From: Cupriavidus basilensis
Lineage (GTDB): Bacteria; Pseudomonadota; Gammaproteobacteria; Burkholderiales; Burkholderiaceae
Reading direction: 5' to 3'
DNA length: 64,000 nt
NCBI RefSeq assembly: GCF_008801925.2
Contig: NZ_CP062803.1
Location: 1,178,001 to 1,242,000 of the forward strand
Part shown: piece by piece, positions 36,144 through 53,227 of the stretch
Position numbering within the stretch: position 1 is the stretch's first letter
How the letters are laid out: each line of letters opens with the position of its first letter
Notes under the pieces: model-generated
Seen by the model: only the letters and a program-made list of their open reading frames with translations
Database searches by the model: none
Told to the model about the DNA's origin: nothing
Position numbers and translations under genes: made by a program

Positions 36144-36213
36144 AGACCGCGGATTGCGGCTGCAACGGCACACGCTGTTGCCGCGTTGTTCCCTGTCCCC
36201 CTCTCCCCGCTTG

Positions 36214-36229
36214 TTAGACCAAAGTCCCA
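36214..36229. promoter_or_regulatory. DosR-like inverted repeat A
   Basis: TTAGACCAAAGTCCCA, 85 bp upstream of the receiver-only regulator gene at 36314. It matches sites B (36726) and C (51125) at 13-15 of 16 positions. Core GAC-N4-GTC. Confidence 0.6.
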
Positions 36230-36313
36230 TATCTGCGGTCAGGCAACTGTCATACGCTCAACCTAGCGTCGAATCAGGCTGGGTGCCGCGCTGCCTGTGT
36301 GGGGAATGTCGCC

Positions 36314-36694
36314 ATGAGCAAAGTCAAGCCGTTCGTCGCAGTGGTAGATGACGACGAATCGGTGCGCCGCGCCATCAAACGGCTCCTGCGCTCCGTCGGC
36401 TTGTCAGCGGACACGTTCAAGAGCGGGGATGAGTTCCTGGACATGTTCGACGCGATACCGGCATATCGTCCGGACTGCATCGTGCTCGATATCCAGATGC
36501 CGGGCCTGAACGGGCTTGAGGTGCAACGCCGGCTCGCGGGCAGCGGCATTCCCGTGATCTTCATCACGGCACACGACGAGATCGGCATTCGCGAACAGGC
36601 CTTGGCCGCCGGCGCGGCGGCCTATCTGCGCAAGCCGTTCGACGACGAGATTCTCATCCGGGTCGTGCGTGCGGCCATCCATCCACCTCCGTAG
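36314..36694 (+). CDS. Single-domain response regulator (receiver only)
   Basis: A 126-residue CheY-like receiver without output domain. The acidic pocket is VVDDDESV (D12-D14), the phosphorylation site is D59 in VLDIQMPG, the Thr/Ser switch is in FITAHDE and the conserved Lys is in LRKPF. By motif (LDIQMPGLNG, LRKPF) it belongs to the FixJ receiver subfamily. The start at 36314 has GGGGAA before it; a GTG at 36299 is possible. Its promoter carries DosR-like box A. It may act as a phosphate sink or competitor for the kinase encoded at 49321-50745, which shares the boxes. No kinase gene is adjacent. Confidence 0.88.
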   Translation: MSKVKPFVAVVDDDESVRRAIKRLLRSVGLSADTFKSGDEFLDMFDAIPAYRPDCIVLDIQMPGLNGLEVQRRLAGSGIPVIFITAHDEIGIREQALAAGAAAYLRKPFDDEILIRVVRAAIHPPP

Positions 36695-36725
36695 CGCGGC
36701 AGCCACCGCGGCGGTCTGGCGGCTA

Positions 36726-36741
36726 TTGGACCAAGGTCCCA
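36726..36741. promoter_or_regulatory. DosR-like inverted repeat B
   Basis: TTGGACCAAGGTCCCA, 117 bp upstream of the SYLF lipoprotein gene and just after the receiver gene. Core GGAC-N4-GTCC with a perfect 6-bp inverted repeat around AA. Placed to control the operon that runs into the RND and Pqi genes. Confidence 0.65.
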
Positions 36742-36857
36742 TTGTTTTAGCCGGTTCCGGATATCACTATGGATCAGACCCCGGAAGAATGCTCGGTGGG
36801 CCTGCGCTTTACACCGTGTCGTCAGTGTCGTTAATTCTCATGCCTGGAGCATGCACC

Positions 36858-37418
36858 ATGATCAAGATCCTTCGGCTTATTCTCGCGATTCCCCTGCTGC
36901 TGGTCGCGGTGGCTTGTTCGACCGAGCAGACGTCCACCGTGGGGAACAGTCCGGAGCTCGAAGCGAGTGCGCGCAGTGCTCTGCAAAAGCTCAATGACAC
37001 GAATCCCAAGACCAAGGATCTCCAGGCGCGTTCCAAGGGGGTTCTCGTGTTCCCGGACATCATGAAAGCGGGCTTTCTCGTGGGCGCGCAAGGCGGCAAT
37101 GGGGTGATGTTCGGCCCGGATGGCACGGTGCTGGGCTACTACAACGCGTCGGCGGTGTCGTATGGCCTGCAGGCGGGCGCCCAGACCTTCTCGGAGGCGA
37201 TGTTCTTCATGAGCGACTCGGCCTTGCGGGATCTCAACGATAGCGACGGGCTGTCGGTCGGTGTCGGGCCGAGCGTGGTTGTGGTGGATGAGGGCATTGG
37301 CAAATCCATGACCAGCTCGCAGCTCACATCGGATCTCTACGTCTTTATCTACGGGCAGCAGGGCTTGATGGCCGGTCTTGGCGTGCAAGGCCAGAAGATC
37401 TCCAAGCTCAGCCGCTGA
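36858..37418 (+). CDS. SYLF/Ysc84-domain lipoprotein
   Basis: A 186-residue lipoprotein. The signal sequence ends in the lipobox VAVACSTE near residue 18. The SYLF domain (lipid-binding, Ysc84 type) follows, with SKGVLVFPDIMKAGFLVGAQGGNGVMF, YNASAVSYGLQAGAQTFSEAMFFM and the C-terminal SDLYVFIYGQQGLMAGLGVQGQKIS. Eukaryotic homologues bind phosphoinositides; the bacterial role is unknown, probably at the envelope. The start at 36858 gives the correct signal peptide and has GGAG upstream. Followed 14 bp later by the glycine-zipper gene. Confidence 0.9.
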   Translation: MIKILRLILAIPLLLVAVACSTEQTSTVGNSPELEASARSALQKLNDTNPKTKDLQARSKGVLVFPDIMKAGFLVGAQGGNGVMFGPDGTVLGYYNASAVSYGLQAGAQTFSEAMFFMSDSALRDLNDSDGLSVGVGPSVVVVDEGIGKSMTSSQLTSDLYVFIYGQQGLMAGLGVQGQKISKLSR

Positions 37419-37432
37419 CCTGGCAGACGACC

Positions 37433-37906
37433 ATGCAACGCACGCAGCGAATCGCACTTGGCCTGATGATATGCGCCCTGGCGTCAGCCGCCGGCGCGCA
37501 GCAACCCATCATCTATCCCGCCAAGGGGCAGAGCCCGCAGAAGCAGAGTTCGGACACCGCCGCGTGCCAGCAGTGGGCCAAGCAGACCACGGGTGTGGAT
37601 CCGGTGGCCATCGCGCAGCAATCCGGCCAGCCTGCCGCGCCGCCGCAGCAAGGCGGACGCGTCAGGGGCGCGGCCGGTGGCGCAGCGGCCGGCGCGGCGA
37701 TTGGCGCGATTGCCGGCGATGCAGGCAAGGGCGCCGCGATCGGGGCGGTCACCGGCACGGCCGCCGGCGGCGTGCGCCAGCGCCGCAAGAACGAGGCCGC
37801 GGCCGAGCAGCAGCAGGCGGGGCAGCAACAGGTCTCCCAGGAAATGGCGACATTCAACCGGGCGGTGGGGGCGTGCATGACCGGACGCGGATACACCGTT
37901 CAGTAG
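37433..37906 (+). CDS. Glycine-zipper (YMGG/OmpA-like) secreted protein
   Basis: A 157-residue protein with a signal peptide (IALGLMICALASAAGA, before QQPII). Its centre is a long glycine zipper, RGAAGGAAAGAAIGAIAGDAGKGAAIGAVTGTAAGGV, expected to form a membrane-inserted helical hairpin. The ends are Gln-rich, and the C-terminus FNRAVGACMTGRGYTVQ resembles the tail found in related lipoproteins. Two cysteines (about 45 and near the C-terminus) could form a disulfide. Function unknown; the linkage to the SYLF gene suggests an envelope stress role. Confidence 0.85.
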   Translation: MQRTQRIALGLMICALASAAGAQQPIIYPAKGQSPQKQSSDTAACQQWAKQTTGVDPVAIAQQSGQPAAPPQQGGRVRGAAGGAAAGAAIGAIAGDAGKGAAIGAVTGTAAGGVRQRRKNEAAAEQQQAGQQQVSQEMATFNRAVGACMTGRGYTVQ

Positions 37907-37955
37907 AGAACGCAGCAGATGTAGAAGAAGGGCGCGGTCAGCTGGGGATCCAGAG

Positions 37956-39212
37956 ATGGCAACGAAACTGATTTCACCTCTGCGGATTGCAGCCGTCGGG
38001 CGCGTGCGCAGCCGCGCCTGGTTGCCGTTCGCGTTTGCCGGTGCAGCGTTGTTGCTGCTTGCCGCTTGCCACAAACCGGCGAACGAGTTGCCGCGTGCGA
38101 CCACCGAGGTGACGGTCATGACCGTGTCGCAGCGCGACACCCCGGTCGACTTCGAATTCACCGCCCAGACGCAAAGCTCGCGCGAGGTCGAGATTCGTGC
38201 TCGCGTCGACGGCTTCCTGGACAAGCGCGTCTATACCGAGGGGCAACTGGTGCATGCCGGGCAGGTGCTCTTCGTGATGGACACCGCGCCGTTCGAAGCG
38301 GCGCTGCAGTCGGCCAAGGGCCAGCTTGCACAGCAGGAGGCCAGGCTCACCGTGACCAAGGCCAATCTTGCCCGCGTGATTCCGCTCGCCGCCCAGAACG
38401 CACTCAGCCAGAAGGATCTCGATAACGCAACGGGCAACGAGAAGGAGGCGGAGGCCGCCGTGATCGCGGCCAAGGGCCAGGTCCGGACCGCCGAGCTCAA
38501 CCTGAGCTACACCACGATCAAGTCCCCGCTCACCGGCTTGTCGAGCTTTGCACGGCAGCAGGACGGCAGCTACGTGACCGCGGCGGCAACGGGCTTGCTG
38601 ACCTATATCTACCAGCTTGACCCCATGTGGGTGAACTTCAGCATCTCCGAGAATGAGTTGCTGACCTACCGGGACCAGGTGGAGAAAGGCCAGTTGCGGT
38701 TTCCGGCGAATAACGATTTCGAGGTGGCGGTCGTGCTTGCCGACGGCAATGTGTTCCCGGGCCGCGGGCATATCAACTTCACCAACCCTGCGTTCAACAC
38801 GCAGACCGGCACCTTCCTCGTGCGGGCCTCGTTCGCCAACCCGCAAGGCACCCTGCGCCCCGGACAGTTCGTGCGCGCGCGGGTTTCTGGCGCGGTGCGC
38901 CCGAATGCGGTTTTGGTGCCGCGCCGCGCGGTATTGCAGGGATCGAAAAGCCACTTCGTCTGGACCGTCGACAAGGATGCGAAAGGCCATCAGCGGGTGG
39001 TCGAAGTCGGAGAGTGGCACGGCGATGACTGGTTCATCACCGAGGGCCTCAAGCCCGGGGAGCGGATCGTCGTCGACGGCGCCATTCGCGTGGTTGCCGA
39101 TACGCCGCTGAAGATCACCCAGGCGCCGGCCAAGAGTGCCGACGCCGCGCAGCCGCGCAGCGAAGCGCAGAGCCTCTCGCAGCGGCAGTCTGCCCCTGGC
39201 GCGACGAACTGA
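37956..39212 (+). CDS. RND efflux periplasmic adaptor (MexA/AcrA family)
   Basis: A 418-residue membrane-fusion protein. The lipobox-like LLLLAACHKPAN (near residue 38) indicates a lipid anchor. The lipoyl halves are EIRARVDGFLDKRVYTEGQLVHAGQVLFVMD and LSYTTIKSPLTGLSSF, separated by the alpha-hairpin (AKGQLAQQEARLTVTKANLARV). The beta-barrel domain follows (GRGHINFTNPAFNTQTGTFLVRASFANP and RPGQFVRARV). It bridges the inner-membrane pump and the outer-membrane channel. It is 13 bp upstream of the pump gene. Confidence 0.94.
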   Translation: MATKLISPLRIAAVGRVRSRAWLPFAFAGAALLLLAACHKPANELPRATTEVTVMTVSQRDTPVDFEFTAQTQSSREVEIRARVDGFLDKRVYTEGQLVHAGQVLFVMDTAPFEAALQSAKGQLAQQEARLTVTKANLARVIPLAAQNALSQKDLDNATGNEKEAEAAVIAAKGQVRTAELNLSYTTIKSPLTGLSSFARQQDGSYVTAAATGLLTYIYQLDPMWVNFSISENELLTYRDQVEKGQLRFPANNDFEVAVVLADGNVFPGRGHINFTNPAFNTQTGTFLVRASFANPQGTLRPGQFVRARVSGAVRPNAVLVPRRAVLQGSKSHFVWTVDKDAKGHQRVVEVGEWHGDDWFITEGLKPGERIVVDGAIRVVADTPLKITQAPAKSADAAQPRSEAQSLSQRQSAPGATN

Positions 39213-39225
39213 CCGGGCAGGCCAC

Positions 39226-42200
39226 ATGAATATCTCCCACTTCTGCATTGAACGGCCGATCTTCGCGTCGGTCATCTCGATCGTGATCACGCTTGGCGGC
39301 GCGCTGGCCATGCTAAGCCTGCCCATCGCGCAGTATCCGGACATCACGCCACCGCAGATCACGATTTCGGCGACATACCCGGGCGCCACCGGCGACGTGG
39401 TCGCCAACAATGTCGCCGCGCCGATCGAGCAGCAGGTCAATGGCGCGGACAACATGATCTATATGAACTCATCGAGTTCATCGACCGGCAACTTCACGCT
39501 CAATGTCTTCTTCCAGATCGGCACCAACCCGGAGCTTGCGCAGGTCGATGTGCAGAACCGCGTGAACCTGGCGCTGCCGCAACTGCCGTCGTCGGTGCAG
39601 GCGCAGGGCATCCAGGTGCAGAAGAAATCATCGGCGTTCATGATGGTCATCGCCATCTATTCGCCCAACGATCGCTACGACTCGACCTACATCGCCAACT
39701 ACGCCAATATCTACGTGCTCGATGCGCTCAAGCGCGTGCCCGGCGCGAACCAGTCCAGCATCTTCGGCAACCCGGACTACGCCATGCGCATCTGGCTCAA
39801 GCCTGACCGCATGGCGCAGCTCGGCATCACGGCCTCCGACGTGCAGAAGGCCGTCGCCAACCAGAACCAGCAGTTCGCGGTCGGCAGCATCGGCCAGTCG
39901 CCAACCGGCGCGGCGGTCGAGCAATCCTTTGCCGTCACCACCACCGGCCGCCTGAGCGATCCGGCCGAGTTCGAGAACATCATCCTGCGCGCGGCAAACG
40001 GTGAGGCGGCGATCGTGCGCCTCAAGGACATCGGCCGTGCCGAACTCGGCCGCAAGGACTACTCGATCCGCAGCAAGTTCCAGGGCAAGCCGGCAACGGT
40101 CATCGCCGTCTACCAGCAGCCGGGCGCCAATGCGCTCGACGTGTCGAACCAGGTGCGCAAGACGCTGGCGGAGATGAAGAAATCGTTTCCCGAAGGCCTT
40201 GAATACAGCATCGCGATGGACACGACCGAGTTCACGCGCGCGTCGATCTCGGACGTCATCCACACGTTCTTCGAAGCCCTCGTGCTGGTCGTGATCGTGG
40301 TCTTTGTCTTCCTGCAGAGCCTGCGTGCCACGTTGATCCCGGTGCTGGCGGTGCCGGTGTCGATCGTCGGCACGTTCATGGGCATGCTCTTGCTCGGATT
40401 CTCGATCAACATGCTGACGCTGTTCGGCATGGTGCTGGCCATCGGCATCGTGGTGGACGATGCCATTGTCGTGATCGAGAACGTCGAGCGAAACATGAAC
40501 GTCCACAAGCTGAGCCCGAAGGATGCCGCCAAACGGGCCATGGACGAGGTCTCGGGGCCGGTGGTGGCGATCGTGCTGGTCATGTGCGCGGTGTTCGTGC
40601 CGGTCGCCTTCCTTGGCGGCATCACCGGGCAACTGTACAAGCAGTTCGCCATCACCATTGCCATCTCGGTGGTGTTCTCCGGGCTGGTCGCGCTGACCCT
40701 GTCGCCAGCGCTGGCGGCATTGTTGCTCAAGCCCGGGCACCACGAAAAGAAAGGCTTCTTCAAGTGGTTCGAAAATGCGTTCGCGCGGATGACCGCTGGC
40801 TATACGCGCATGGTGAAGCTGATCATCAAGCGCTTCGTGGTGGCGCTGCTGCTGTTCGCCGGCATGATCGTGCTTGCGGTGTTCATGATGCGCTCGATCC
40901 CGACCTCGTTCCTGCCGCCGGAGGACCAGGGTTACCTGCTCGGCGCGGTGATCATGCCGGACGCGGCCAGCCTGGATCGCACCGGCGCGGTTTCCCAGCA
41001 TGTGACCGACTACTTCATGAAGCAGCCGGCGGTGAGCAGCGTCACGGTAGTCGACGGCTTCAGCTTGCTCGATAGCCAGAACAAGAACAACGCCGGGGCG
41101 TTCTTTATCGGCTTCAAGAGCTTCGACGAGCGCTATAAATTCGCCAATATCAAGACGCAGAACGCCCGTGCCGTGCTGATCGGTGCGTACGAGAACCTGT
41201 CCCAGGTCAAGGAGGGGATCATCCTGCCGGTCAATCCGCCGTCGATCCCGGGGCTCGGCACGACTGGCGGCACCGAGATGTGGATCCAGAGCAAGGGAGA
41301 TGCCAGCATTCCCCAACTCGCGGGCGTGGTGAACGACTTCATGGCCAAGGCCAAGCTGCGGCCCGAGCTTGCTCGCGTGACCTCGACCTTCAATGCGGCG
41401 TCCCAGCAATTGCTGGTCAGCGTGGACCGCGACAAGGCGGAGACCCTGGGCGTGCCGATCGAGGAGGTGTACAGCGCCATGCAGACCATGTTCGGCTCGC
41501 TGTACGTGTCGCAGTTCAACCGCTCGAGCCGGCTGTGGCAGGTCATCCTGCAAGCGGAGCCTTCGTACCGGCTCAAGCCCGGGGACCTCGACCAGATCTT
41601 CGTGCGCAGCAGGACCAACAGCATGGTCCCGCTCAAGGCCGTGGTGAGCACCAAGTTCGTCACCGGTCCGGACCTGGTGACGCGCTTCAACAACTTCCCG
41701 GCGGTCAAGATTACCGCTAACGCCGCGCCGGGCTACAGCTCCGGACAGGTCCTGTCCACGCTGGAATCGGTGGCCGACGAGGTGATGCCGCCTGACTACG
41801 GCGTGGGGTGGAGCGGCGAAGCCTACGAAGCCAGGCAGGCTGGCAGTACGTCGGGGCTGGTGTTCGTGTTTGGCCTGATCATGGTGTTCCTGATCCTTGC
41901 CGCGCAATACGAGAAGTGGAGCTTGCCGGTCGGTGTGCTGATGGCGGTGCCGTTCGCGCTGTTTGGCGCATTGCTGGCCATCCTGCTGCGCGGCCTCGAG
42001 AACGATGTCTACTTCCAGATCGGCCTGACGATGCTGGTCGCGCTGGCCGCCAAGAACGCCATCCTGATCTTCGAGTTCGCGGTGCTCAACCGCGAGGCGG
42101 GTGCGTCGGTCTACGACTCCGCCGTCACGGCGGCGGCCGAGCGGCTGCGCCCGATCGTGATGACTTCGCTGGCCTTCATCCTCGGCTGCGTGCCGCTGGC

Positions 42201-42462
42201 CATTGCGCTTGGCGCGTCGGCCAACAGCCGGCACTCGATCGGCACCGGCGTCATTGGCGGCATGCTTGGCGCGACGGCGATCGCGGTGTTCTTCATCCCG
42301 ATGTTCTACTACGCGCTCGAGTCGATGTCGGAGCGCTCCGGCGGGGGCAAGAAGACCCCGGGCCCGCAGGGCGGTGCGCCCGGCGCGCCGCCGTCGGGCC
42401 CCACCGGCGTGGGACCGGGGACCCCGGCGGCTACGCCGTCCGCCAGGCACGAGGGCGACTGA
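39226..42462 (+). CDS. RND efflux pump, HAE1 (MexB/AcrB) family
   Basis: A 1078-residue inner-membrane proton antiporter. The N-terminus MNISHFCIERPIFASVISIVI is canonical. The proton relay pair is in GIVVDDAIVVIENVERNM (two consecutive Asp in TM4), and the Lys/Thr counterparts are in the second half (LVALAAKNAILIFEFA). The start at 39226 is fixed by homology; an upstream frame opening at 39136 overlaps the adaptor. A 40-residue Pro/Gly/Ala tail (PQGGAPGAPPSGPTGVGPG) extends beyond the usual about 1040 residues and is probably disordered. Likely a multidrug or solvent pump. Confidence 0.96.
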   Translation: MNISHFCIERPIFASVISIVITLGGALAMLSLPIAQYPDITPPQITISATYPGATGDVVANNVAAPIEQQVNGADNMIYMNSSSSSTGNFTLNVFFQIGTNPELAQVDVQNRVNLALPQLPSSVQAQGIQVQKKSSAFMMVIAIYSPNDRYDSTYIANYANIYVLDALKRVPGANQSSIFGNPDYAMRIWLKPDRMAQLGITASDVQKAVANQNQQFAVGSIGQSPTGAAVEQSFAVTTTGRLSDPAEFENIILRAANGEAAIVRLKDIGRAELGRKDYSIRSKFQGKPATVIAVYQQPGANALDVSNQVRKTLAEMKKSFPEGLEYSIAMDTTEFTRASISDVIHTFFEALVLVVIVVFVFLQSLRATLIPVLAVPVSIVGTFMGMLLLGFSINMLTLFGMVLAIGIVVDDAIVVIENVERNMNVHKLSPKDAAKRAMDEVSGPVVAIVLVMCAVFVPVAFLGGITGQLYKQFAITIAISVVFSGLVALTLSPALAALLLKPGHHEKKGFFKWFENAFARMTAGYTRMVKLIIKRFVVALLLFAGMIVLAVFMMRSIPTSFLPPEDQGYLLGAVIMPDAASLDRTGAVSQHVTDYFMKQPAVSSVTVVDGFSLLDSQNKNNAGAFFIGFKSFDERYKFANIKTQNARAVLIGAYENLSQVKEGIILPVNPPSIPGLGTTGGTEMWIQSKGDASIPQLAGVVNDFMAKAKLRPELARVTSTFNAASQQLLVSVDRDKAETLGVPIEEVYSAMQTMFGSLYVSQFNRSSRLWQVILQAEPSYRLKPGDLDQIFVRSRTNSMVPLKAVVSTKFVTGPDLVTRFNNFPAVKITANAAPGYSSGQVLSTLESVADEVMPPDYGVGWSGEAYEARQAGSTSGLVFVFGLIMVFLILAAQYEKWSLPVGVLMAVPFALFGALLAILLRGLENDVYFQIGLTMLVALAAKNAILIFEFAVLNREAGASVYDSAVTAAAERLRPIVMTSLAFILGCVPLAIALGASANSRHSIGTGVIGGMLGATAIAVFFIPMFYYALESMSERSGGGKKTPGPQGGAPGAPPSGPTGVGPGTPAATPSARHEGD

Positions 42463-42463
42463 C

Positions 42464-43942
42464 ATGCGGACTTCTGCGCTCTCGCTCATCGCCTTGCTGA
42501 CGCTCAGCGGCTGCCTGCTCGGACCCAACTACCAGCGGCCCGCCGTCGACACGCCGCCGGCCTTCCGTTTTTCCGACGCGCAGGCCAAGGATGTCGTCAA
42601 TACGACGTGGTGGGTACAGTTCCAGGATCCCGTGCTCAACGACCTGATCACGATCGCGCTGGCCGAGAACAAGGACGTGAAGATCGCGGCGGCGCGCGTG
42701 GACCAGTTCCTCGGGCAGTTCCAGAGCACCCGCTCGCAGTTGTTCCCGCAGGTTTCCGCGCTCGCCAACGCCCAGCGTGAGCGCGTGCCCGTCGGCTCAG
42801 CGCTGTTGCCGCCCGGGGTCGGGCCGGTCATCAACCAGTACCAGGCGACACTCTCGGCATCGTGGGAGCTTGATGTCTTCGGCAAGGTGCGCCGCCAGAC
42901 GGAATCCGCGCGTGCAAGCTTGCTGGCGAGCGAGGAGGGCCGGCGCGCGACCATCCTGACGCTGGTGGCTTCCGTTGCTTCGTCGTATGTGAACCTGCTG
43001 TCTCTAGACCGGCAAATGGAAATCGCCAAGGCCACCGTGGCCAGCCGGGCAGACTCGGTACACGTATTCCAGCTGCGCTATAGCGGCGGGGAGGTGTCGC
43101 AGATGGAGCTGGCGCAGAGCCAGTCTGAGTACGAGTCCTCGCTGGCGACCATTCCGCAGATCGAGCTCCAGATCGCGCAACAGGAGGACGCGCTGTCGAT
43201 CCTGCTGGGGCAGAATCCCCAGCCGATCCTGCGTGGCCGCGGACTGGACGACCTGGCCTTGCCCATGGTGCCGGCTGGCCTGCCCTCCGAATTGCTCACG
43301 CGCCGCCCGGACCTGCGCCAGGCCGAGCAGGACCTGATCGCCGCCAACGCGCTGATCGGCGCGGCGCGCGCGCTCTACTTCCCGTCGATCTCCCTGACCG
43401 GCGTGTTCGGCACGGCAAGCGGCCAGTTCTCGTCGCTCTTCACCGGCCCGGCCCGGCTATGGTCATACGCCGGCGCAGTGACGGTGCCGATCTTCACCGC
43501 GGGTAACATCAGCGGGCAGGTCAGGCAGGCCGAGGCGCAGCAGCAGCAGGCGCTGTTCGCTTACCAGAAGGCGATTCAGGTCGCGTTCCAGGAGGTCGAG
43601 GACGCGCTGGTGTCGCTGCAGAAGACGCGCGAGAAGCTTGTCGTGCAGGGCCGCCAGGTCGAAGCGCTGCGGACCTACGCGCGGCTCGCGCGGCTGCGCT
43701 ACGAGGGTGGATACACCAGCTACATCGAAGTGCTGGATGCCGAGCGCAGCCTGTTCAACGCGCAGCTCAGCTATGCGCAGGCGCAGGGGACGGTGTTCGC
43801 CTCCAGCGTTGCGCTCTACAAGGCGATGGGGGGCGGCTGGGTGGTCGACGCCGAGCGCATGACCGCGGTAGCGTACGGCGATGGCGGTGCGCCCTTGCCG
43901 CCAGGGGAGCCCGCCGCCAGATCCGCCCAGCCGCAGCCATGA
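42464..43942 (+). CDS. Outer-membrane efflux lipoprotein (OprM/NodT family)
   Basis: A 492-residue channel protein. The lipobox LTLSGCLLGPNYQRP is near residue 17. The first segment WWVQFQDPVLNDLITIALAENKDVKIAAARV and the repeat EQDLIAANALIGAARALYFPSISLTGVFG are diagnostic of the OprM group. The C-terminal helices include YTSYIEVLDAERSLFNAQLSYAQAQG. It starts 1 bp after the pump stop codon, so translation is coupled. It forms the channel of the pump and possibly also serves the downstream Pqi system. Confidence 0.94.
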   Translation: MRTSALSLIALLTLSGCLLGPNYQRPAVDTPPAFRFSDAQAKDVVNTTWWVQFQDPVLNDLITIALAENKDVKIAAARVDQFLGQFQSTRSQLFPQVSALANAQRERVPVGSALLPPGVGPVINQYQATLSASWELDVFGKVRRQTESARASLLASEEGRRATILTLVASVASSYVNLLSLDRQMEIAKATVASRADSVHVFQLRYSGGEVSQMELAQSQSEYESSLATIPQIELQIAQQEDALSILLGQNPQPILRGRGLDDLALPMVPAGLPSELLTRRPDLRQAEQDLIAANALIGAARALYFPSISLTGVFGTASGQFSSLFTGPARLWSYAGAVTVPIFTAGNISGQVRQAEAQQQQALFAYQKAIQVAFQEVEDALVSLQKTREKLVVQGRQVEALRTYARLARLRYEGGYTSYIEVLDAERSLFNAQLSYAQAQGTVFASSVALYKAMGGGWVVDAERMTAVAYGDGGAPLPPGEPAARSAQPQP

Positions 43943-45201
43943 CGACCGCGCGCCTGATCGCCTGCCACGAGTGCGACCTGCTGCAGCGCGAAGCGGCGCT
44001 GCCGGCTGGCGGCGTAGCGCGCTGCCGGCGCTGTGACGCGGAGCTCTACCGGAGCCGGCCGCAGAGCCTGGATCGCGCGCTGGCGTTCACGTTTGCGGCC
44101 ATGGTCATGTTTGGCGTGGCGAATGCGTACCCGGTGGTGGGGTTGTCGGTGAACGGCGACCTTGTCCAGAGCACGCTGTTCGGCGCGGTCCGGATACTGT
44201 ATCGCGACGGCATGTGGCCACTGGCCGGCCTGGTGTTCGTCACCACGCTCATGATGCCGCTGCTGAGAATGGCGGCGATGGCGTACCTGTTGCTGCCGCT
44301 GCGGCTGCAAAGGCTCCCGCGCTGGCCCGACCAGGCGTTTCGCGTCCTGGACATCGCGGCGCCGTGGGGCATGACAGAAGTCCTGATCCTCGGCATGCTG
44401 GTCGCACTCGTCAAGCTCTCGCATATCGCTACCGTGGTGCCCGGCGTCGCGCTTTGGGCGTTCGGGGGCGTGATGCTGCTGCTTGCCGGCGCCGCCGCCG
44501 CATTCGATCCGCGCGACCTGTGGGCCCGGATCGAAGCGGCGTCGCCCGTGGGCGCGCAGGCCGGCGTGACCACGGCATCGGCCGCCACGGCGGCCAGGGC
44601 GGGCCTGCTCGTATGCCATGGTTGCGGGATGCTGTCCCGGCCCGCGCCGCATGCCCACGAAGGCAGCTGCCCGCGCTGTGGTGCGCACCTGCACTTTCGC
44701 AAGCCAGCCAGCATCGCGCGCACCTGGGCGTTCCTGATTGCCGCGATGATCCTGTATATCCCGGCCAATATGCTGCCCGTCATGGACACCAGCTCGCTGT
44801 TCGGCGCGCAGCAGGACACGATCCTGAGCGGCGTGGTCTATCTCTGGACCTCGGACGCCAAGCTGTTGGCCGCCGTCGTGTTCATTGCCAGCATCGCGGT
44901 GCCGATGCTCAAGATCATCGCGCTGCTGTTTCTCGTCATCTCGGCCCAGTTCCACTCGCCGTGGCTGCATGAGAAAAAGACGCGCATCTATCGCCTGGTG
45001 GAGCTGGTGGGGCGCTGGTCGATGCTGGACATCTACGTCATCACGCTCCTGGTGGCACTTGTGCAGTTCAGCGCGCTGGCGACGATCAAGGCCGGCCCGG
45101 CCGCGGTGGCGTTCGGCGCGGTCGTTGTGCTGACGATGTTCGCCGCGATGTCGTTCGATCCGCGCTTGATCTGGGACGCCACGGAGAAAGATCATGGTTG
45201 A
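43939..45201 (+). CDS. pqiA: Paraquat-inducible protein A (PqiA)
   Basis: A 420-residue inner-membrane protein made of two PqiA modules. Each begins with a zinc-ribbon-like Cys-x2-Cys pair: CHECDLLQREAALPAGGVARCRRC, then CHGCGMLSRPAPHAHEGSCPRC near residue 215. Each module then has four hydrophobic helices. In E. coli PqiA is the inner-membrane partner of the PqiB MCE tunnel. The start overlaps the OprM stop by 4 bp (ATGA). Fusion to an RND operon is unusual. Confidence 0.93.
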   Translation: MTTARLIACHECDLLQREAALPAGGVARCRRCDAELYRSRPQSLDRALAFTFAAMVMFGVANAYPVVGLSVNGDLVQSTLFGAVRILYRDGMWPLAGLVFVTTLMMPLLRMAAMAYLLLPLRLQRLPRWPDQAFRVLDIAAPWGMTEVLILGMLVALVKLSHIATVVPGVALWAFGGVMLLLAGAAAAFDPRDLWARIEAASPVGAQAGVTTASAATAARAGLLVCHGCGMLSRPAPHAHEGSCPRCGAHLHFRKPASIARTWAFLIAAMILYIPANMLPVMDTSSLFGAQQDTILSGVVYLWTSDAKLLAAVVFIASIAVPMLKIIALLFLVISAQFHSPWLHEKKTRIYRLVELVGRWSMLDIYVITLLVALVQFSALATIKAGPAAVAFGAVVVLTMFAAMSFDPRLIWDATEKDHG

Positions 45202-46822
45202 GCCGCCCGAACGGCGCGACGAGCCGGGTTCGCCTGATTTTCCCGAAGCGGTGGTCAAGCCGCGCTCGCGCTGGCGCCTGCAACTGGTCTGGCTGGTGCC
45301 GCTGATCGCGGTGCTGATCGGCGGCTGGCTTGCGGTGCAGGCGGTCCTGCAAAAAGGCCCGACCATCACCATCAGCTTCAAGACGGGCGAGGGGATCGAG
45401 GCCGGCAAGACCAAGATCAAGTACAAGGACGTGGACATCGGCGTGGTCAGGAGCGTGGTGCTGTCCAAGGACCACCGCGGCGTGATTGCCAGCGCCGAAC
45501 TGGCCAAGGACGCCACCTCCCTGCTGGTCGACGACACCCGCTTCTGGGTGGTGCGCCCGCGCGTGTCCGGCGGCACCGTATCCGGGCTCGGCACGCTGCT
45601 GTCCGGCTCGTTCATAGGCACGGATGTCGGCACGCAGGCCAAGGAGCGGCGTGACTTCGTCGGCCTTGAGACTCCTCCCGCCGTCGCCAAGGACGTCCCC
45701 GGGCGGGAGTTCGTGCTCAAGAGCGAGGACATGGGCTCGCTCGATGTGGGAACGCCCGTCTTCTTCAGGCGCTTGCAGGTCGGCCAGATTACGGCATACA
45801 CCCTCGACGCGGATGGCAATGGGGTCACGCTGCGCGTCTTCATCAATGCACCCTACGACAAGTATGTGCGGGCCGATACGCGCTTCTGGCATGCCAGCGG
45901 CGTGGATGTGTCGCTGGACACGACTGGCGTGAAGGTCAATACGCAATCGATGGTGGCCATCCTGATTGGTGGCATCGCATTTCAATCGCCCCCGGAGTCG
46001 CCGGGGGGCGCGCCGGCGCAGGCCAACGCCGAGTTCGATCTGTTCCACGACCGTGCGGAGGCGATGAGGCGCCATGACCGTATTGCCGATACCTACGTGC
46101 TGATCTTCAAGGAATCCGTGCGCGGGCTAACAGTCGGGGCGCCGGTTGATTTTCGCGGCATCGTGGTCGGGGAGGTCACGGCGATCTATACGCGTTTCGA
46201 CCGGGCCAAGAAGGAGTTCAACATTCCGGTCGAAGTGCGCGTTTATCCTGAGCGCTTTACCTCGCGCTACGAGACGGGAAAGAAGGGAGGCAGACTGTCG
46301 GACAACCCGCACGAGCTTGCCGTGTTCTTGTTCGATCACGGATTCCGCGGCCAGCTGAGAACCGGCAACCTGCTGACCGGGCAGCTCTACGTCGCCCTGG
46401 ATTTTTTCCCGGGGGCGCCCAAGGCCAAGGTGGACTGGGACGCGAAGCCGCCCGAATTCCCGACCGTGCCGGGCGGCCTGCAATCGCTGCAAGACTCGGT
46501 GACGGCCTTGGTTGCCAAGCTCAACAAGGTGCCGTTCGAGGGGATTGGCGATGATCTGCGCAAGTCCCTGCAGCAAGCGGATGGGTTGCTCAAGACACTC
46601 AACACCGACGTGGCGCCGGAGGCGCGCGCCGCCATGGTCTCCGCGCGCGCGGCGCTCGACTCGGCCAACAACGCGCTGGCGCCGGACTCCACGCTGACGC
46701 AAAGCACGGCGGAGACGATGCGCGAGCTGTCGCGCACGGCGGCATCGCTCAGGGCGCTTGCGGACTACCTCGAGAGCCATCCTGAAGCGCTGCTTCGCGG
46801 CAAGACGGAGGAGAAAAAGTGA
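45194..46822 (+). CDS. pqiB: MCE-domain intermembrane transport protein PqiB
   Basis: A 542-residue protein anchored by one N-terminal helix (LQLVWLVPLIAVLIGGWLAV) with three MCE domains beginning near residues 45 (GPTITISFKTGEGIEAGKTKIKYKDV), 165 and 285 (LTVGAPVDFRGIVVGEVTAIY). A long C-terminal helical region follows, used to build the needle. MCE proteins form a hexameric tunnel for lipid transport between the membranes. The start overlaps pqiA by 8 bp; GAGAAAG precedes it. Confidence 0.94.
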   Translation: MVEPPERRDEPGSPDFPEAVVKPRSRWRLQLVWLVPLIAVLIGGWLAVQAVLQKGPTITISFKTGEGIEAGKTKIKYKDVDIGVVRSVVLSKDHRGVIASAELAKDATSLLVDDTRFWVVRPRVSGGTVSGLGTLLSGSFIGTDVGTQAKERRDFVGLETPPAVAKDVPGREFVLKSEDMGSLDVGTPVFFRRLQVGQITAYTLDADGNGVTLRVFINAPYDKYVRADTRFWHASGVDVSLDTTGVKVNTQSMVAILIGGIAFQSPPESPGGAPAQANAEFDLFHDRAEAMRRHDRIADTYVLIFKESVRGLTVGAPVDFRGIVVGEVTAIYTRFDRAKKEFNIPVEVRVYPERFTSRYETGKKGGRLSDNPHELAVFLFDHGFRGQLRTGNLLTGQLYVALDFFPGAPKAKVDWDAKPPEFPTVPGGLQSLQDSVTALVAKLNKVPFEGIGDDLRKSLQQADGLLKTLNTDVAPEARAAMVSARAALDSANNALAPDSTLTQSTAETMRELSRTAASLRALADYLESHPEALLRGKTEEKK

Positions 46823-47418
46823 TGCGCCCCATTCGTTCGATGGCCGCGGTGCTTGGGTTGGCAGTGCTTGGCGGCTGCGCGAGCTCGCCCCAGCCGACTT
46901 TCTATACGCTGACCTCCGCGCGGGCGCAGGAACGCACCCACGCCGATGTGCCGGCGGCCATCGCGATCGGGCCGGTGGCGGTGCCGGAGATGGTCGACCG
47001 CCCGCAACTGGTGCTGCGCGTTAGCGCGACCCAGGTCAGGCTCGACGAGTTCGCCCGCTGGGCAGAGCCGCTGAAGCGGCAGATCCCGGCCGTGCTCAGT
47101 GCGGACCTGGCCCAGTTCTTCCCGGGGGCGCTCGTGTCCAGCTATCCGCAGTGGGCCGATCCGGGGACGGCGTACCTGGTGTCGGTCGACGTCCAGACGT
47201 TCGACTCGGCCCCCGGCGACGCGGCCGTCATCTCGGTAGTGTGGTCCGTACGGCCGCCAAAGCAGGGGCCACTGGTGAGCGGGCGCAGCGACGTGCGGGA
47301 GCCCGCCGGCGCTGCGGGGTATGACGCGCTCGTCGATGCGCACAGCCGGGCGCTGGCGGCTGTCAGCCGCGACATTGCCGGCGCGATACGTGCGGCAGGC
47401 ACGGCACGTCCACAGTGA
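46822..47418 (+). CDS. pqiC: PqiC-like outer-membrane lipoprotein
   Basis: A 198-residue lipoprotein of the ABC-type transport auxiliary family. The lipobox LAVLGGCASSPQPTFYTL is near residue 16. The conserved segments IAIGPVAVPEMVDRPQLVLR and WAEPLKRQIPAVLSADLAQFFPG are typical of PqiC (YmbA). It forms the outer-membrane dock of the PqiB needle. The ATG at 46822 shares one base with the pqiB stop (TGATG) and follows GGAGGAGAAAA. Confidence 0.92.
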   Translation: MRPIRSMAAVLGLAVLGGCASSPQPTFYTLTSARAQERTHADVPAAIAIGPVAVPEMVDRPQLVLRVSATQVRLDEFARWAEPLKRQIPAVLSADLAQFFPGALVSSYPQWADPGTAYLVSVDVQTFDSAPGDAAVISVVWSVRPPKQGPLVSGRSDVREPAGAAGYDALVDAHSRALAAVSRDIAGAIRAAGTARPQ

Positions 47419-47479
47419 CGGCGCAGCGCGGCCGGGGTGGAGGCTGGCGCCGCCGTATCGCGGCAACAGGGGGTGAGAC

Positions 47480-48241
47480 ATGAACCACCTCGTCATCGCC
47501 TTGATCGTGTTCGCCTGTGTTTTCGGCAGTTCACTGCTTGGCATGTGGGCGCGCGCCATGCTGCCTGAACACCACCTCAGCGATCAGTCCATCGGCGTGG
47601 TCAAGATGGCGACGGGCCTGATCGCCACGATGGCGGCGTTGGTGCTCGGGTTGCTGGTGTCGTCGGCCAAAGGCACGTTCGACACCGTGAGCAGCGAGCT
47701 TGTGCAGAATTCCGCCAGCGTCATCCAGCTCGATCGGGTACTGGCCAAATATGGCCCGGACGCGCAGCAGGTTCGCGTTTTGCTCAAGCGTGTCTACGCC
47801 GAAAAGATCCAGATACTCGACTCCGGGGACGAGGCGCAGATGGCAAAGCTCGGCAATGCCGAATCTGTCAGCCAACTGGAAGCCTTTCAGCGCAAGCTGG
47901 AGTCGCTTGCGCCGCGCGACGACGAGCACGTTCAACTGAAGGCGAAGGCCATGCAGATTGTCGAGAGCGTGTTCGCGGCGCGCTGGCTCGCGTTGCTGCA
48001 GACAAAATCCTCGATCCCGATCTCCTTGCTGATCGTGCTGGTGCTGTGGCTGTCCATCGTATTCGGCACGTTCGGGCTGTTCGCCGAGCGCAACGGGACC
48101 ATCGTCGCCGCGTTGATGATGTGCGCCTTGTCGACTTCCGGGGCCATCTTCCTGATCGAGGAAATGAGCACGCCACTCTATGGGCTGGTCAGCGTGTCGC
48201 TTGCACCCATGCACGACGCGTTTGCCCATCTTGGCCGGTAG
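47480..48241 (+). CDS. DUF4239 (bestrophin-like) membrane protein
   Basis: A 253-residue protein with four hydrophobic segments: residues about 3-24 (LVIALIVFACVFGSSLLGMW), 43-63 (MATGLIATMAALVLGLLVSSA), 185-206 and 212-232. A central soluble domain of about 120 residues contains ELVQNSASVIQLDRVLAKYG. This is the arrangement of the bestrophin-like DUF4239 family. Ion or signalling roles are unknown. It lies 61 bp after pqiC on the same strand, so it is probably the end of the operon. Confidence 0.82.
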   Translation: MNHLVIALIVFACVFGSSLLGMWARAMLPEHHLSDQSIGVVKMATGLIATMAALVLGLLVSSAKGTFDTVSSELVQNSASVIQLDRVLAKYGPDAQQVRVLLKRVYAEKIQILDSGDEAQMAKLGNAESVSQLEAFQRKLESLAPRDDEHVQLKAKAMQIVESVFAARWLALLQTKSSIPISLLIVLVLWLSIVFGTFGLFAERNGTIVAALMMCALSTSGAIFLIEEMSTPLYGLVSVSLAPMHDAFAHLGR

Positions 48242-48337
48242 CGCACAAGGCGCCGCGCTCGGCGCCATGCTGACCTACTCTTGAGCAGGGCACGCGCCGG
48301 CGTGAGGTGTTTGTGCCGGCCACAACAAGGAGTCGTG

Positions 48338-48622
48338 ATGAAGATCCTAGCCAGTTTGGCATGCGTCATGCTGTGCGCGAACGCGTATGCCGAATGCACC
48401 ACCAACGCGCGCGGGGCTGTGGTTTGCAACAACGGAGAATCGGCCGCCGGGTACAACCGGAACACGGGTAACGGCTTTACGTCGGAGAAAAACCAGAACG
48501 GCGTGACGACGACGCAGACCACCAAGGGCGGGGAGGCCAAGACCAAGGATGGCAAGGGGGTCTATACGAGCCCGAGCGGAAAGACCTGCGCCAGGACAGC
48601 CCGCCATCAGGGCTGCAACTGA
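48338..48622 (+). CDS. Small secreted cysteine-containing protein
   Basis: A 94-residue protein with a signal peptide (MKILASLACVMLCANAYA, cleaved before ECTT). The mature about 76 residues are Lys/Thr/Gly-rich and hydrophilic, with four cysteines (ECTTN, VVCNN, KTCAR, QGCN) that could pair in two disulfides. AAGGAGTCG precedes the ATG. No family recognised. It lies 96 bp after the DUF4239 gene on the same strand and is convergent with the FixJ-type regulator gene. Confidence 0.75.
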   Translation: MKILASLACVMLCANAYAECTTNARGAVVCNNGESAAGYNRNTGNGFTSEKNQNGVTTTQTTKGGEAKTKDGKGVYTSPSGKTCARTARHQGCN

Positions 48623-48658
48623 AGCGCGGCGGCTGGCTTCAGGCACGCCCAGGCCAGG

Positions 48659-49324
48659 TCATGGTGCCGTGGCAGCGGGTGCGCCCGGACCGGGGTGAAG
48701 GAGCGGATGAGCGATGCCGGCCTTGTCGGTGATGCGCACCAGTTCGGCCAGGGAGTGAGCCTCCATCTTTCTCATCACGCGGGCGCGGTGGACTTTGATG
48801 GTCTTTTCCGCCGTGCCCAGTTCACAAGCCATCTGCTTGTTCAGGCGGCCTTCGACGACCAGCGTGAGCACTTCGCGCTCGCGCGGTGTGAGGCGGTCTA
48901 TGCGGCTGTAGATCGCTTCGATCTCGATGCGGCTCGCGCGTGCTTGCGACGCCCGCCCCAATGCGGCTTCGATCGCGTTCAGCAGATCGCTCTCACTGAC
49001 CGGCTTGACCAGGAAGTCCGTCGCGCCGGCTTTCATGGCGCGCACGCTGGCGGGGATATCGCCATGTCCGGTAATGAAGACGATCGGCAGCGGCCTGCCT
49101 GCTCCATTGAGCTCACGTTGCAATTCCAATCCGTTCAGATCGGGGAGTTGCAAGTCGAGCACCAGGCAGGCGTTGCACTCGGCAGGCGAGCCGCTGTCGA
49201 GGAACGCGCGCGCGCAGCCGAATCCCTCAACAAGGTAGCCGGCGCCGCGGATCAGGCGCATCAGCGCCTGGCGTACCGCGTCGTCATCATCCACCACGAA
49301 GACGGTTGGTGTGGGGTTGTTCAT
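48659..49324 (-). CDS. FixJ/NarL-family two-component response regulator
   Basis: A 221-residue regulator. The receiver has VVDDDDAVRQ, the phosphorylation site D57 in LVLDLQLPD and K107 in FLVKPVSES. The LuxR-type output domain (about 150-210) has LTPREREVLTLVVEGRLNKQMACELGTAEKTIKVHRARVMRKM. Its ATG overlaps the kinase stop by 4 bp. NarL/FixJ output domains bind short inverted repeats. The DosR-like boxes A, B and C in this region are plausible targets of this protein. Confidence 0.93.
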   Translation of the reverse strand: MNNPTPTVFVVDDDDAVRQALMRLIRGAGYLVEGFGCARAFLDSGSPAECNACLVLDLQLPDLNGLELQRELNGAGRPLPIVFITGHGDIPASVRAMKAGATDFLVKPVSESDLLNAIEAALGRASQARASRIEIEAIYSRIDRLTPREREVLTLVVEGRLNKQMACELGTAEKTIKVHRARVMRKMEAHSLAELVRITDKAGIAHPLLHPGPGAPAATAP

Positions 49325-50745
49325 GGGTGTTCCCCCGAATGTGCGGGCTCTGTGTTCGCTGCGACCGGCAACGTGAAATAGAAAGTGGCACCTTGGTCGC
49401 TATTGTTCTCGGCCCATATGCGTCCGCCGTGCATTTCCACGATGGAGCGGCTGATGGACAGCCCGAGGCCAAGCCCTTCGCGCTTTGAGGTGAAGAATGG
49501 CTTGAAGATCTGGTCGAGGTTGTCCGCGCTCAGGCCGGGGCCACGGTCCCGCACCGCCACGCGCACCATGCCGGCGCCTTCGCGCGTGGCGTCAACCATG
49601 ACCACGCGGTCCCGCGCCGGGCGGGACTCGACTGCGTGGAAGGCGTTAAGCAGCAGATTCAGCACGACTTGCTGCACCTGGACGCTATCGCCCTGCGCGG
49701 TGGGCAGCGTGGGTTCGGTGTGCTGGACCACGCGGATGCCGCGTACGATCGCGTCGCTGTGGACCAGGAGCGCCACGTCGCCGATGACGCGCTCAAGACT
49801 GAGGGGCGCGGCTTCGAGGTCGCCCTTCTTGACCAGCCTGCGAATCCTGCGGATCACTTCGCTCGCGCGGTGGTTGTCCTCGACGATATCCTGCAGGATC
49901 TCACGCACTTCGGCCAGGTTGACAGGCTGCGTCGACATGAAGCGTTGAGCGGCCTGCGCGTTGCTCAAGATCGCCGTCAGCGGCTGATTCAACTCGTGCG
50001 CGAGTGAGCTCGCCAGCTCGCCCAGCGTGGAGACACGCGTCAGATGGGCAAGCTCCTGCCGGTTACGCTGTAGCTCGTAGCGCTCGGTCCGGTCGATGAC
50101 GACGGTCAGCATGAGCGGCGCCCCGTCGAACGAAGCGTCCTTAGCGGTGATTTCCGCCGGGAACTCGGTGCCGTCCTTGCGGCGCGCAAACTGGTCATGC
50201 GTGCCGCCTGCCGGCCTGCACAAGCGCACGGCCCTGGTGTCGCCCTGCCATCCTGGTATGAGCGCGTCGGCAGATGCGCCGATCAGTTCATCCTGGCGGT
50301 AGCCGAAGAGCTTCTCCGCGCCAGCATTGGCCAAGAGGATCTGGCCGCGCGGATTCGTCAACAGAATGGCAAACGGCAACAAGGCCAGCATGCCGCGCAC
50401 GCTTTCATCATGCTGCAATGCCCGCGCGGAGCCGGGGACTCCGTCGGGGGTATCGCCGCGGGGGGCCAGAGGCCCATCCCGTGGCTCCGGGCGCATGGCG
50501 GTGCGCTGGACGAGGCCAGGGGAGAGCATGCCAAGGCGTGCGCCAATGGGGCGCCAGCCCTGACGCCAGGACTGGCGAAATCTCGGCCCCCTGGCAGGGT
50601 GTGGCTGTGCTGCGGGGGCGTCCGCCGCCGGGTAGCGCCACGCTGCATCATTGGCCCGCGCGCGCCGGAATTGCAGCAGCAGCAGCAACAACAGCAGCGC
50701 GATGAACGCTGCCTCCAGGAAGGCAGCAGTGCGGATGATGGTCAT
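49321..50745 (-). CDS. PAS-domain sensor histidine kinase (FixL-like)
   Basis: A 474-residue kinase. One N-terminal membrane helix (FLEAAFIALLLLLLLLQF) is followed by a disordered linker and a PAS domain at about 115-220 (MLALLPFAILLTNPRGQILLANAGAEKLFGYRQ). The HisKA H-box is LAHELNQPLTAIL with H250. The ATPase N box is VVLNLLLNAFHAVE and the G boxes are RDRGPGLS and GLGLGLSISRSIVEMHGG. The PAS domain lacks the heme-binding histidine in the position seen in FixL as far as can be judged, so the signal is unknown. The ATG at 50745 is chosen because GGGAG precedes it; the longer frame to 50826 has no site. Co-translated with the FixJ-type regulator. Confidence 0.92.
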   Translation of the reverse strand: MTIIRTAAFLEAAFIALLLLLLLLQFRRARANDAAWRYPAADAPAAQPHPARGPRFRQSWRQGWRPIGARLGMLSPGLVQRTAMRPEPRDGPLAPRGDTPDGVPGSARALQHDESVRGMLALLPFAILLTNPRGQILLANAGAEKLFGYRQDELIGASADALIPGWQGDTRAVRLCRPAGGTHDQFARRKDGTEFPAEITAKDASFDGAPLMLTVVIDRTERYELQRNRQELAHLTRVSTLGELASSLAHELNQPLTAILSNAQAAQRFMSTQPVNLAEVREILQDIVEDNHRASEVIRRIRRLVKKGDLEAAPLSLERVIGDVALLVHSDAIVRGIRVVQHTEPTLPTAQGDSVQVQQVVLNLLLNAFHAVESRPARDRVVMVDATREGAGMVRVAVRDRGPGLSADNLDQIFKPFFTSKREGLGLGLSISRSIVEMHGGRIWAENNSDQGATFYFTLPVAANTEPAHSGEHP

Positions 50746-51124
50746 GGCGCCGTGCTCCCTGTCAGTGGTTCGCACGCACGCATGCGAACCCGGCGCCGTC
50801 GGCAAGCCGGCGAGCGATTGAGCCATTCAGCGTGCATGCGCCGGCATTGGGCAACTGCGCCATGGCAGCGCGTTGCTCCCCATCGCATACCTGCGCTGGG
50901 CTGATCAGCGGACCCGTCTTAAATGCTTCCTCGCGCCCCCGCGCCCAGGTGGGTGAAACGTCACTGGCGGGGCAGGCGGCCCCACGATCATGTGGCATGG
51001 AGCAAAAAAAGTGTAGGCGCTGGCGTTGCTTTGTAAAAGACATAAGTCGCGATTGTGGAACTTACCATGCGCGGATTCGCGCACGGCGCGTCGCCTCGCC
51101 GGCGGCGCGATCCCGTGATGGAAA

Positions 51125-51140
51125 TGGGACCAAGGTCCCA
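51125..51140. promoter_or_regulatory. DosR-like inverted repeat C
   Basis: TGGGACCAAGGTCCCA, a perfect 7-bp inverted repeat around AA. It lies in the 555-bp divergent region between the kinase gene (start 50745) and the patatin gene (start 51301), 160 bp before the latter. The rest of this intergenic region (50746-51300) shows no gene. Confidence 0.7.
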
Positions 51141-51300
51141 TTGCCGGTGGCCGGTGCGCGGGCTATTCCTTTAGTTGAGCGGCGTCGGGCAGCGCTGAGC
51201 GCCGCCGCGCGGCTGCAAGCCGCAAGTTCGCATTCCGGATTCACGCAATGGATCCGATGTGGCCCGATGCTGATCGGGAAAGATCCCCCAGGGAGCCATC

Positions 51301-52446: not shown

Positions 52447-52482
52447 CATCCGTTGACGCGCAAAAAAACAGGAGCCCACGCC

Positions 52483-53223
52483 ATGACTGAAGCTGACATA
52501 AAGGCGCACGCGTTCGCGATGCCGCTCACGAGTCCGGCATTCCCGTGCGGCCCCTATCGCTTTGTCAATCGCGAGTTCCTGATCATCACCTACCGCACCG
52601 ACCCCGACGCACTGGCAGCCGTGATACCCGCGCCGCTGGAGATGACCGAGCCGATCGTCAAGTTCGAGTTCATCCGCATGCCCGATTCAACCGGCTTCGG
52701 CGACTACACGGAAAGCGGCCAGGTCATTCCGGTGCGATTCAAGGGCGAGCACGGCGGCTACGTGCACGCCATGTTTCTCGACGATGGCTCGCCGATCGCG
52801 GCGGGCCGCGAAATCTGGGGCTTTCCCAAGAAGCTGGCCTCGCCGCAGCTACGCATCGAGAAGGACACGATCGGCGGCGTGCTGCGCTACGGTCCGGTCC
52901 CGATCGCCGTGGCGACGATGGGCTACAAGCACAAGACGCTTGCCCACGACAAGATCCTGGCATCGCTATGCGCGCCCAACTTCCTGCTCAAGATCATTCC
53001 GCACGTGGACGGGACGGCGCGCATCTGCGAACTGGTGCGCTACTTCTGCGAAGACATCACCGTGAAAGGCGCCTGGGAGGGGCCGGCGGGGCTCGAGCTG
53101 TTTCATCACGCGCTCGCGCCGGTCGCGGCGCTGCCGGTGCTCGAGGTGATTTCGGGCGTGCATATCCTCACCGACCTGACGCTGGGCCTGGGGACGGTTG
53201 TCCATGACTATCTGGCTGCGTGA
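52483..53223 (+). CDS. adc: Acetoacetate decarboxylase
   Basis: A 246-residue enzyme converting acetoacetate to acetone and CO2 through a Schiff base. The active-site lysine pair is K116-K117 in [10 protein letters not shown] and the conserved acid is in [10 protein letters not shown] (E77). The N-terminus ([14 protein letters not shown]) matches the family. CAGGAGCCCACGCC precedes the ATG at 52483. It is coupled to the patatin gene, linking lipid hydrolysis to ketone handling; in polyhydroxybutyrate producers acetoacetate is an intermediate of polymer turnover. Confidence 0.94.
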
Positions 53224-53227
53224 GCCC

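Follow-up and report, generated by a model that had tools for sequence, protein, structure and literature searches.

Three nearly identical 16-base boxes (A, B, and C) lie in a 64,000-nucleotide stretch of the Cupriavidus basilensis genome (contig NZ_CP062803.1, positions 1,178,001 to 1,242,000 of the forward strand; hereafter the window), and comparative analysis indicates that a neighboring kinase-regulator pair (49321-50745 / 48659-49324) probably acts through these boxes as a class II activator of the genes behind them. In the mechanism that we propose, the PAS histidine kinase would phosphorylate the FixJ/StyR-type response regulator, and a dimer of the phosphorylated regulator would bind an extended palindrome, GCTATTGGACCAAGGTCCAATAGC (core GGACYWWRGTCC). 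This palindrome would abut a poor –35 element at a fixed distance before the –10 hexamer, and the bound regulator would recruit sigma-70 RNA polymerase in class II fashion, activating rather than repressing transcription. Predicted targets in the window are a receiver-only regulator with a probable feedback role, the SYLF/glycine-zipper/RND/PqiABC gene run, and the patatin and acetoacetate decarboxylase genes; two distant sites would add the gene for a 196-residue periplasmic protein and, probably, one for a beta-carbonic anhydrase. The proposal draws on features that we computed, namely the motif, its rarity, its co-occurrence with the regulator, gene order, –10 spacing, and an association between helix and box.

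Association of the boxes with the regulator

An original prediction, made from the sequence of the window, described three near-identical boxes at 36214, 36726, and 51125; all are present, and pairwise comparisons gave 13, 14, and 15 identical bases of 16. A scan of the window allowing up to three mismatches found four matches (one of them box C on the opposite strand) versus a shuffle mean of 0.34, and none of 100 shuffles reached four. The genome-wide scan suggested in that prediction, run here in a looser form (TNNGACCAANGTCCCA), returned four matches in the 8.94-Mb genome (three within the window and one on contig C2) and none for a reversed control. A symmetric motif, TKGGACYWWRGTCCMA, derived from box variants in loci of relatives, had four exact sites and one single-mismatch site in the same genome, where base composition alone predicts 0.07 exact sites; at up to two mismatches it was not enriched genome-wide (22 sites versus 32 for the control). 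All five sites with at most one mismatch were intergenic by our own gene calls, which came from a simple caller that misplaced some starts. The first site outside the window lies 65 bp upstream of the gene for the 196-residue periplasmic protein. The second (locus L154) precedes a carbonic anhydrase gene (Pfam Pro_CA), whose start is uncertain, as is the placement of the site, because no stop codon interrupts its reading frame across the box.

Several comparisons link the boxes to the regulator. First, in a survey of 60 genomes of the genus, the originally proposed motif occurred in G000, G058, G040, and G035, and regulator matches of at least 77% identity were found, among the matches listed, in G000, G058, and G040. 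Second, among 398 genomes of the family, 41 had at least one exact site and 64 carried the regulator at E ≤ 1e-60. Such a close homolog was present in each of the 24 genomes that had at least two exact sites, and none of the 334 regulator-negative genomes had more than one (Fisher p = 1.3e-21 for two or more sites, not corrected for kinship). Seventeen genomes had one exact site only, 6 of them regulator-positive and 11 regulator-negative; a reversed control pattern also matched once in each of 11 of the 398 genomes, and the 11 lone sites in regulator-negative genomes therefore look like chance. Among 200 genomes sampled across the order, sites were present in four: the C. basilensis genome itself, G496 (two sites), and G539 and G564 (one each). 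Named carriers of homologs include Caballeronia, Paraburkholderia, and Burkholderia lata. Boxes also occur at the end of the regulator gene in one Desulfobacteraceae, one Desulfobacterales, one Phycisphaerae, and two near-identical Bacillota bins, and, with one mismatch, in an Acidobacterium strain. A conjugative symbiotic plasmid of Paraburkholderia phenoliruptrix (NC_018696.1; L270) encodes a 60% homolog of the regulator, which lies near TerC and TrkA-domain genes and has two one-mismatch boxes nearby.

Third, gene order recurs. In many loci, kinase and regulator are followed by a box, the receiver-only gene, a second box, and the efflux genes, the efflux part consisting of SYLF and/or glycine-zipper, HlyD, RND, and outer membrane factor genes. 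Degenerate sites were found at two constant offsets, ~360 and ~875 bp from the center of the regulator, in several genomes without exact sites (for example, G232, G290, G091, and G097). Stretches were fetched both around boxes and around regulator matches. The window and 102 such loci, most of them chosen because they bear boxes, together contained 125 sites that were exact or had a single mismatch; 123 of these were intergenic, where 79% of the DNA was called coding. The two genic sites were L019:9150, in a gene that clusters with DUF3300, and L141:571. Many unrelated occurrences within genes, named in the original prediction as evidence that would count against it, did not appear.

A less biased set consisted of 44 loci fetched around regulator matches; four of the matches (in G034, G035, G009, and G046) did not reach E ≤ 1e-60. 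Exact sites are absent from the genomes that supplied these 44 loci, apart from one each in G249, G219, G292, G035, G338, and G293. The core GGACYWWRGTCC occurred 27 times in these loci, every time between genes and in 25 cases with [TC]AnnnT at the fixed distance on one side, and three control palindromes occurred 1, 0, and 0 times. Over all 103 stretches there were 135 core sites, 133 intergenic and 117 with the –10 pattern, and eight control palindromes gave 0-2 occurrences each. A subgroup with NKLVADELGAAEKTIKIHRARVM and a 38-41% kinase (L158-L162, L164, L166, L168, L169, and L173) had no box at up to two mismatches in the fetched stretch; its regulators adjoin PqiC-like and often PqiB-like genes, and its site may have drifted.

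Finally, the boxes track the recognition helix. EKT was present in this helix in 30 of 31 aligned family homologs, the exception (G274) coming from a genome without exact sites. Among 80 named relatives, a nearby box was found in 16 of the 26 with Lys174 versus 1 of the 54 without it (p = 2.9e-9, kinship not corrected). In a comparison within the C. basilensis genome, where 7 of 46 candidate helix-turn-helix (HTH) domains passed E ≤ 1e-6, EKT.K occurred in the 48659 protein and in none of the other related domains.

Promoter geometry and alternative explanations

Alignment of 69 non-redundant promoters extended the palindrome to GCTATTGGACCAAGGTCCAATAGC and revealed a hexamer at box positions 40-45. 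These were drawn from 89 oriented promoters, restricted to boxes with a gene start 55-260 bp away, of which 20 were dropped because of similarity above 60% or insufficient length. The pattern [TC]AnnnT occupied positions 40-45 in 55 of the 69 promoters and no other offset from 17 to 99 in more than five, and across relatives the box and the –10 hexamer persisted while the promoter flanks varied. By class of target, the hexamer was present at 24 of 24 SYLF sites (22 genomes), 21 of 22 receiver-gene sites (20 genomes), and 5 of 9 glycine-zipper sites. With a 17-bp spacer, the –35 element would read TWGC.., immediately 3' of the box, and would be a poor one. Taking the transcription start as ~7 nt past the –10 hexamer, the box center would fall at about –43.5, and the layout would therefore be that of a class II activator. 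A standard sigma-70 scan of 35800-53500 found two promoter-like sites (2.5 expected), none of them at the boxes; the absence of a standard promoter and the poor –35 element at the boxes are expected where an activator is required. A terminator scan of the same interval gave 13 candidates against 9.3 expected, without usable excess. On the kinase side of box C, no [TC]AnnnT hexamer was found at the corresponding positions.

Some observations fit activation by the neighboring regulator less well. G035 has boxes (one exact, the others with one mismatch) and only a ~50% homolog, located on another contig. Of the 64 genomes in the family that carry the regulator, 34 lack an exact site; 10 of the 26 relatives with Lys174 lack a box, and one relative without Lys174 has one. 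No site with up to two mismatches was found in the fetched stretches of L127, L128, and L129, whose regulators are 62-67% identical, or in those of a Paraburkholderia-type subgroup with EKTIK. The regulator loci of G345, G361, and G284 (L131, L132, and L133) likewise have no box at up to two mismatches in the fetched stretch, the boxes lying elsewhere in these genomes. At the promoters themselves, the mirror side of the box carries the –10 pattern in 10 of 68 cases, and the last base of the box C hexamer, TATTCC, violates the [TC]AnnnT rule; the patatin promoter of G040 has TATTTT at the same position.

Binding of the boxes by another NarL/LuxR-type regulator, with the neighboring FixJ-type protein as a bystander or target, would fit G035 and the 11 regulator-negative genomes that hold one exact site each. 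CrbR of Pseudomonas fluorescens, a LuxR-type response regulator that requires an imperfect inverted repeat (PMC5715377), also has a partly similar motif; in the available portion of that paper, the listed match TACGACTAAAGTCTAAA resembles the box at its center with weaker symmetry, the targets serve acetate utilization, and the kinase is of a different family. We consider this explanation unlikely, however, as no regulator-negative genome has two sites and the reversed control also matches 11 genomes once, boxes stand immediately behind the regulator gene in many loci, other phyla included, and the other related HTH domains found in the C. basilensis genome lack EKT.K. A slightly less probable alternative is that the regulator binds the boxes and mainly represses by blocking the –35 position, with the signal relieving repression. 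The box does abut that position, where a bound protein could hinder polymerase, but a poor –35 element without a standard sigma-70 promoter would be expected under an activator, and the box lies upstream of the –10 hexamer, rather than over it, at one fixed distance. We reject chance or a mobile palindromic repeat without regulatory role as highly improbable: although one box in G058 precedes a gene that by eye resembles an insertion sequence (IS) transposase (L017:1796), the shuffles, the rarity of sites relative to expectation, their intergenic placement, the control palindromes, and the differing flanks around a constant box and –10 hexamer all argue otherwise. For the 48659 protein as the regulator of the boxes, as originally predicted, co-occurrence, gene order, –10 distance, and the helix-box association thus provide comparative support.

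Relationship to known regulators

The regulator passes the Pfam cut-offs for Response_reg and GerE and contains Asp57 and Lys107, as expected for the NarL/FixJ type. Against solved relatives it scored 191 bits with StyR, 155 with FixJ, 65 with NarL, and 64 with DevR, and its HTH domain best matched StyR, EL222, and FixJ. We rejected membership of the DosR/DevR group, given the far closer match to StyR. Membership of FixLJ was rejected as well, the regulator falling short of the NCBIfam FixJ cut-off (206.3 bits against 255) and the kinase of the FixL cut-off (230.8 bits against 850). The regulator sequence thus resembles StyR and FixJ rather than DosR, and the kinase is FixL-like. A PAS histidine binds heme in FixL. 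The C. basilensis kinase, aligned to FixL, has no histidine at the heme-binding stretch, none is conserved among its orthologs, and the PAS domain varies among them; with the heme-histidine stretch not kept, heme-based oxygen sensing by the kinase has no support.

The boxes had originally been called DosR-like. The site of DosR (DevR) of Mycobacterium tuberculosis, which we take to be GGGAC-N4-GTCCC, has the same spacing, and this consensus is exact in box C and partial in boxes A and B. The likeness holds for the DNA; the protein is closer to StyR and FixJ, and DosR has a different partner kinase and different targets. In the available portion of PMC5999986, the core DNA-binding residues of DosR are K182, N183, and K179; placed by the ends of the match, K179, K182, and N183 fall on K174, K177, and V178 of the 48659 protein, so that two of three are kept.

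StyR (1yio) and FixJ, the best solved relatives of the whole regulator, are likewise paired with a FixL-like PAS kinase, and their helices, AEVTVKVHR and SPRTI/VEV, lack EKT.K. EL222 of Erythrobacter litoralis, a LOV-HTH protein whose HTH domain was one of the two highest-scoring solved matches (52.0 bits), has the helix SEKTVKMHR. Its 12-bp consensus, given as RGNCYWWRGNCY in the available passages of PMC10521638, covers the box core GGACYWWRGTCC, and box A, with AGACCAAAGTCC, also fits. EL222 is a one-component blue-light LOV protein with neither receiver nor kinase, and the 48659 protein has a receiver in place of the LOV domain; the same passages give a single consensus for EL222 and describe no comparable regulon. 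OsdR of Streptomyces coelicolor is a response regulator of the DevR type whose site is likewise a palindrome of 16 bp (PMC5069765, available portion); its consensus, AGGGCCGATCGGCCCT, is unlike the box.

These comparisons point to the use of a DosR/EL222-type site by regulators of the FixJ/StyR type, both in Burkholderiaceae and in a few other phyla. An evenly balanced proposal, which may or may not hold, is that the system belongs to a FixLJ-like class spread over several phyla and defined by an EKT[IV]K helix and a GGACYWWRGTCC box that immediately follows the regulator gene and in many cases precedes a receiver-only feedback gene. Such boxes would mark an envelope, ion-transport, and energy stress regulon (SYLF, RND-Pqi, DUF3300, PPK2, SulP, bestrophin-like, and carbonic anhydrase genes), and one helix-site code would serve both kinase-driven proteins (the 48659 protein and DosR) and a light-driven one (EL222). 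If the code is common to both, the site would therefore locate the regulon in unstudied genomes.

Genes of the window and the proposed wider regulon

The genes next to the boxes were as originally described, now confirmed by Pfam and NCBIfam. The gaps between successive genes from SYLF through glycine zipper, HlyD, RND, outer membrane factor, PqiA, and PqiB to PqiC are 14, 49, 13, 1, –4, –8, and –4 bp, and these genes are probably co-transcribed. Control of PqiABC would follow from this shared run behind box B, as these genes have no box of their own. The receiver-only protein retains, by eye, the Asp, Thr, and Lys of a functional receiver and is probably a feedback target that would draw phosphate away, a role we add to the original prediction.

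Table 1. Boxes, predicted –10 hexamers, and genes in the window.
Feature	Position	Strand	Remarks
Box A TTAGACCAAAGTCCCA	36214..36229	+	upstream of receiver-only regulator; one mismatch to TKGGACYWWRGTCCMA
Box B TTGGACCAAGGTCCCA	36726..36741	+	upstream of SYLF-RND-Pqi gene run; exact match to TKGGACYWWRGTCCMA
Box C TGGGACCAAGGTCCCA	51125..51140	+	between kinase and patatin; exact match to TKGGACYWWRGTCCMA
Predicted –10 hexamer TACGCT, box A	36253..36258	+	predicted start near 36265
Predicted –10 hexamer CACTAT, box B	36765..36770	+	predicted start near 36777
Predicted –10 hexamer TATTCC, box C, towards patatin	51164..51169	+	predicted start near 51176
Receiver-only response regulator	36314..36694	+	Pfam Response_reg; 126 amino acids from ATG 36314; alternative GTG 36299
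SYLF-domain (Ysc84/BPSL1445-like) lipoprotein	36858..37418	+	Pfam; NCBIfam BPSL1445 134.6 bits, under cut-off of 200
Glycine-zipper protein	37433..37906	+	Pfam
HlyD-type membrane-fusion protein	37956..39212	+	Pfam
RND efflux permease	39226..42462	+	Pfam; NCBIfam RND_permease_1 over cut-off
Outer membrane efflux protein	42464..43942	+	Pfam OEP
PqiA	43939..45201	+	Pfam; NCBIfam TIGR00155 over cut-off
PqiB-type MlaD-domain protein	45194..46822	+	Pfam MlaD (scan from 45251)
PqiC-type auxiliary lipoprotein	46819..47418	+	Pfam ABC_trans_aux (scan from 46840)
Bestrophin-like membrane protein	47480..48241	+	Pfam; 61-bp gap; possible last member of the run
FixJ/StyR-type response regulator, proposed box binder	48659..49324	-	Asp57; helix EKTIK with K174 and K177
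PAS histidine kinase	49321..50745	-	4-bp overlap with regulator gene; alternative start 50826
Patatin-like phospholipase with DUF3734	51301..52446	+	Pfam
Acetoacetate decarboxylase	52483..53223	+	Pfam; NCBIfam over cut-off

Next to the kinase-regulator pair, the window also encodes a small protein (48281-48622; 113 amino acids as called from a TTG) with no Pfam match, homologs of which adjoin the pair in G058 (87% identity) and G040 (79%). In L131, L132, and L133 (G361, G345, and G284), the pair lies near a gene of ~1620 codons.

In relatives, further genes preceded by a box encode PPK2, an ion channel, a cytochrome bd subunit, transporters of the AI-2E family, and small periplasmic proteins; DUF3300, NhaA, and GltS genes occur at a greater distance from boxes. 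Behind the regulator-box pair of the Desulfobacteraceae bin come genes that by eye resemble DUF3300, SulP, and PPK2. The originally predicted envelope regulon thus agrees with the efflux, Pqi, and patatin genes and is too narrow as a label, given boxes before PPK2, ion-channel, AI-2E-family, and probably carbonic anhydrase genes. In five of five genomes, the gene for a periplasm-type protein of ~100 residues with no Pfam match (L018:5112-5420) is preceded by a box and a matching –10 hexamer. G058 has two boxes 93 bp apart upstream of a periplasmic-protein gene (L149:11344-11452), and a like pair at L017:1796-3237 is interrupted by the IS transposase-looking gene (by eye), as if an element had inserted.

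We found no description of the box-regulator pairing, the promoter geometry, or the regulon in the open-licence literature, where a search with six box cores met DosR as the only bacterial regulator; both half-sites also occur in a paper on Helicobacter ArsRS/NikR. The kind of machine is already known, and the switch design appears to recur widely among relatives and, more rarely, in distant bacteria. A Burkholderiaceae two-component system, so far unstudied, gains a short list of candidate targets, a promoter geometry, and a proposed recognition code. If the proposal is correct, RND efflux, Pqi intermembrane lipid transport, and lipid hydrolysis by patatin would be under one switch.

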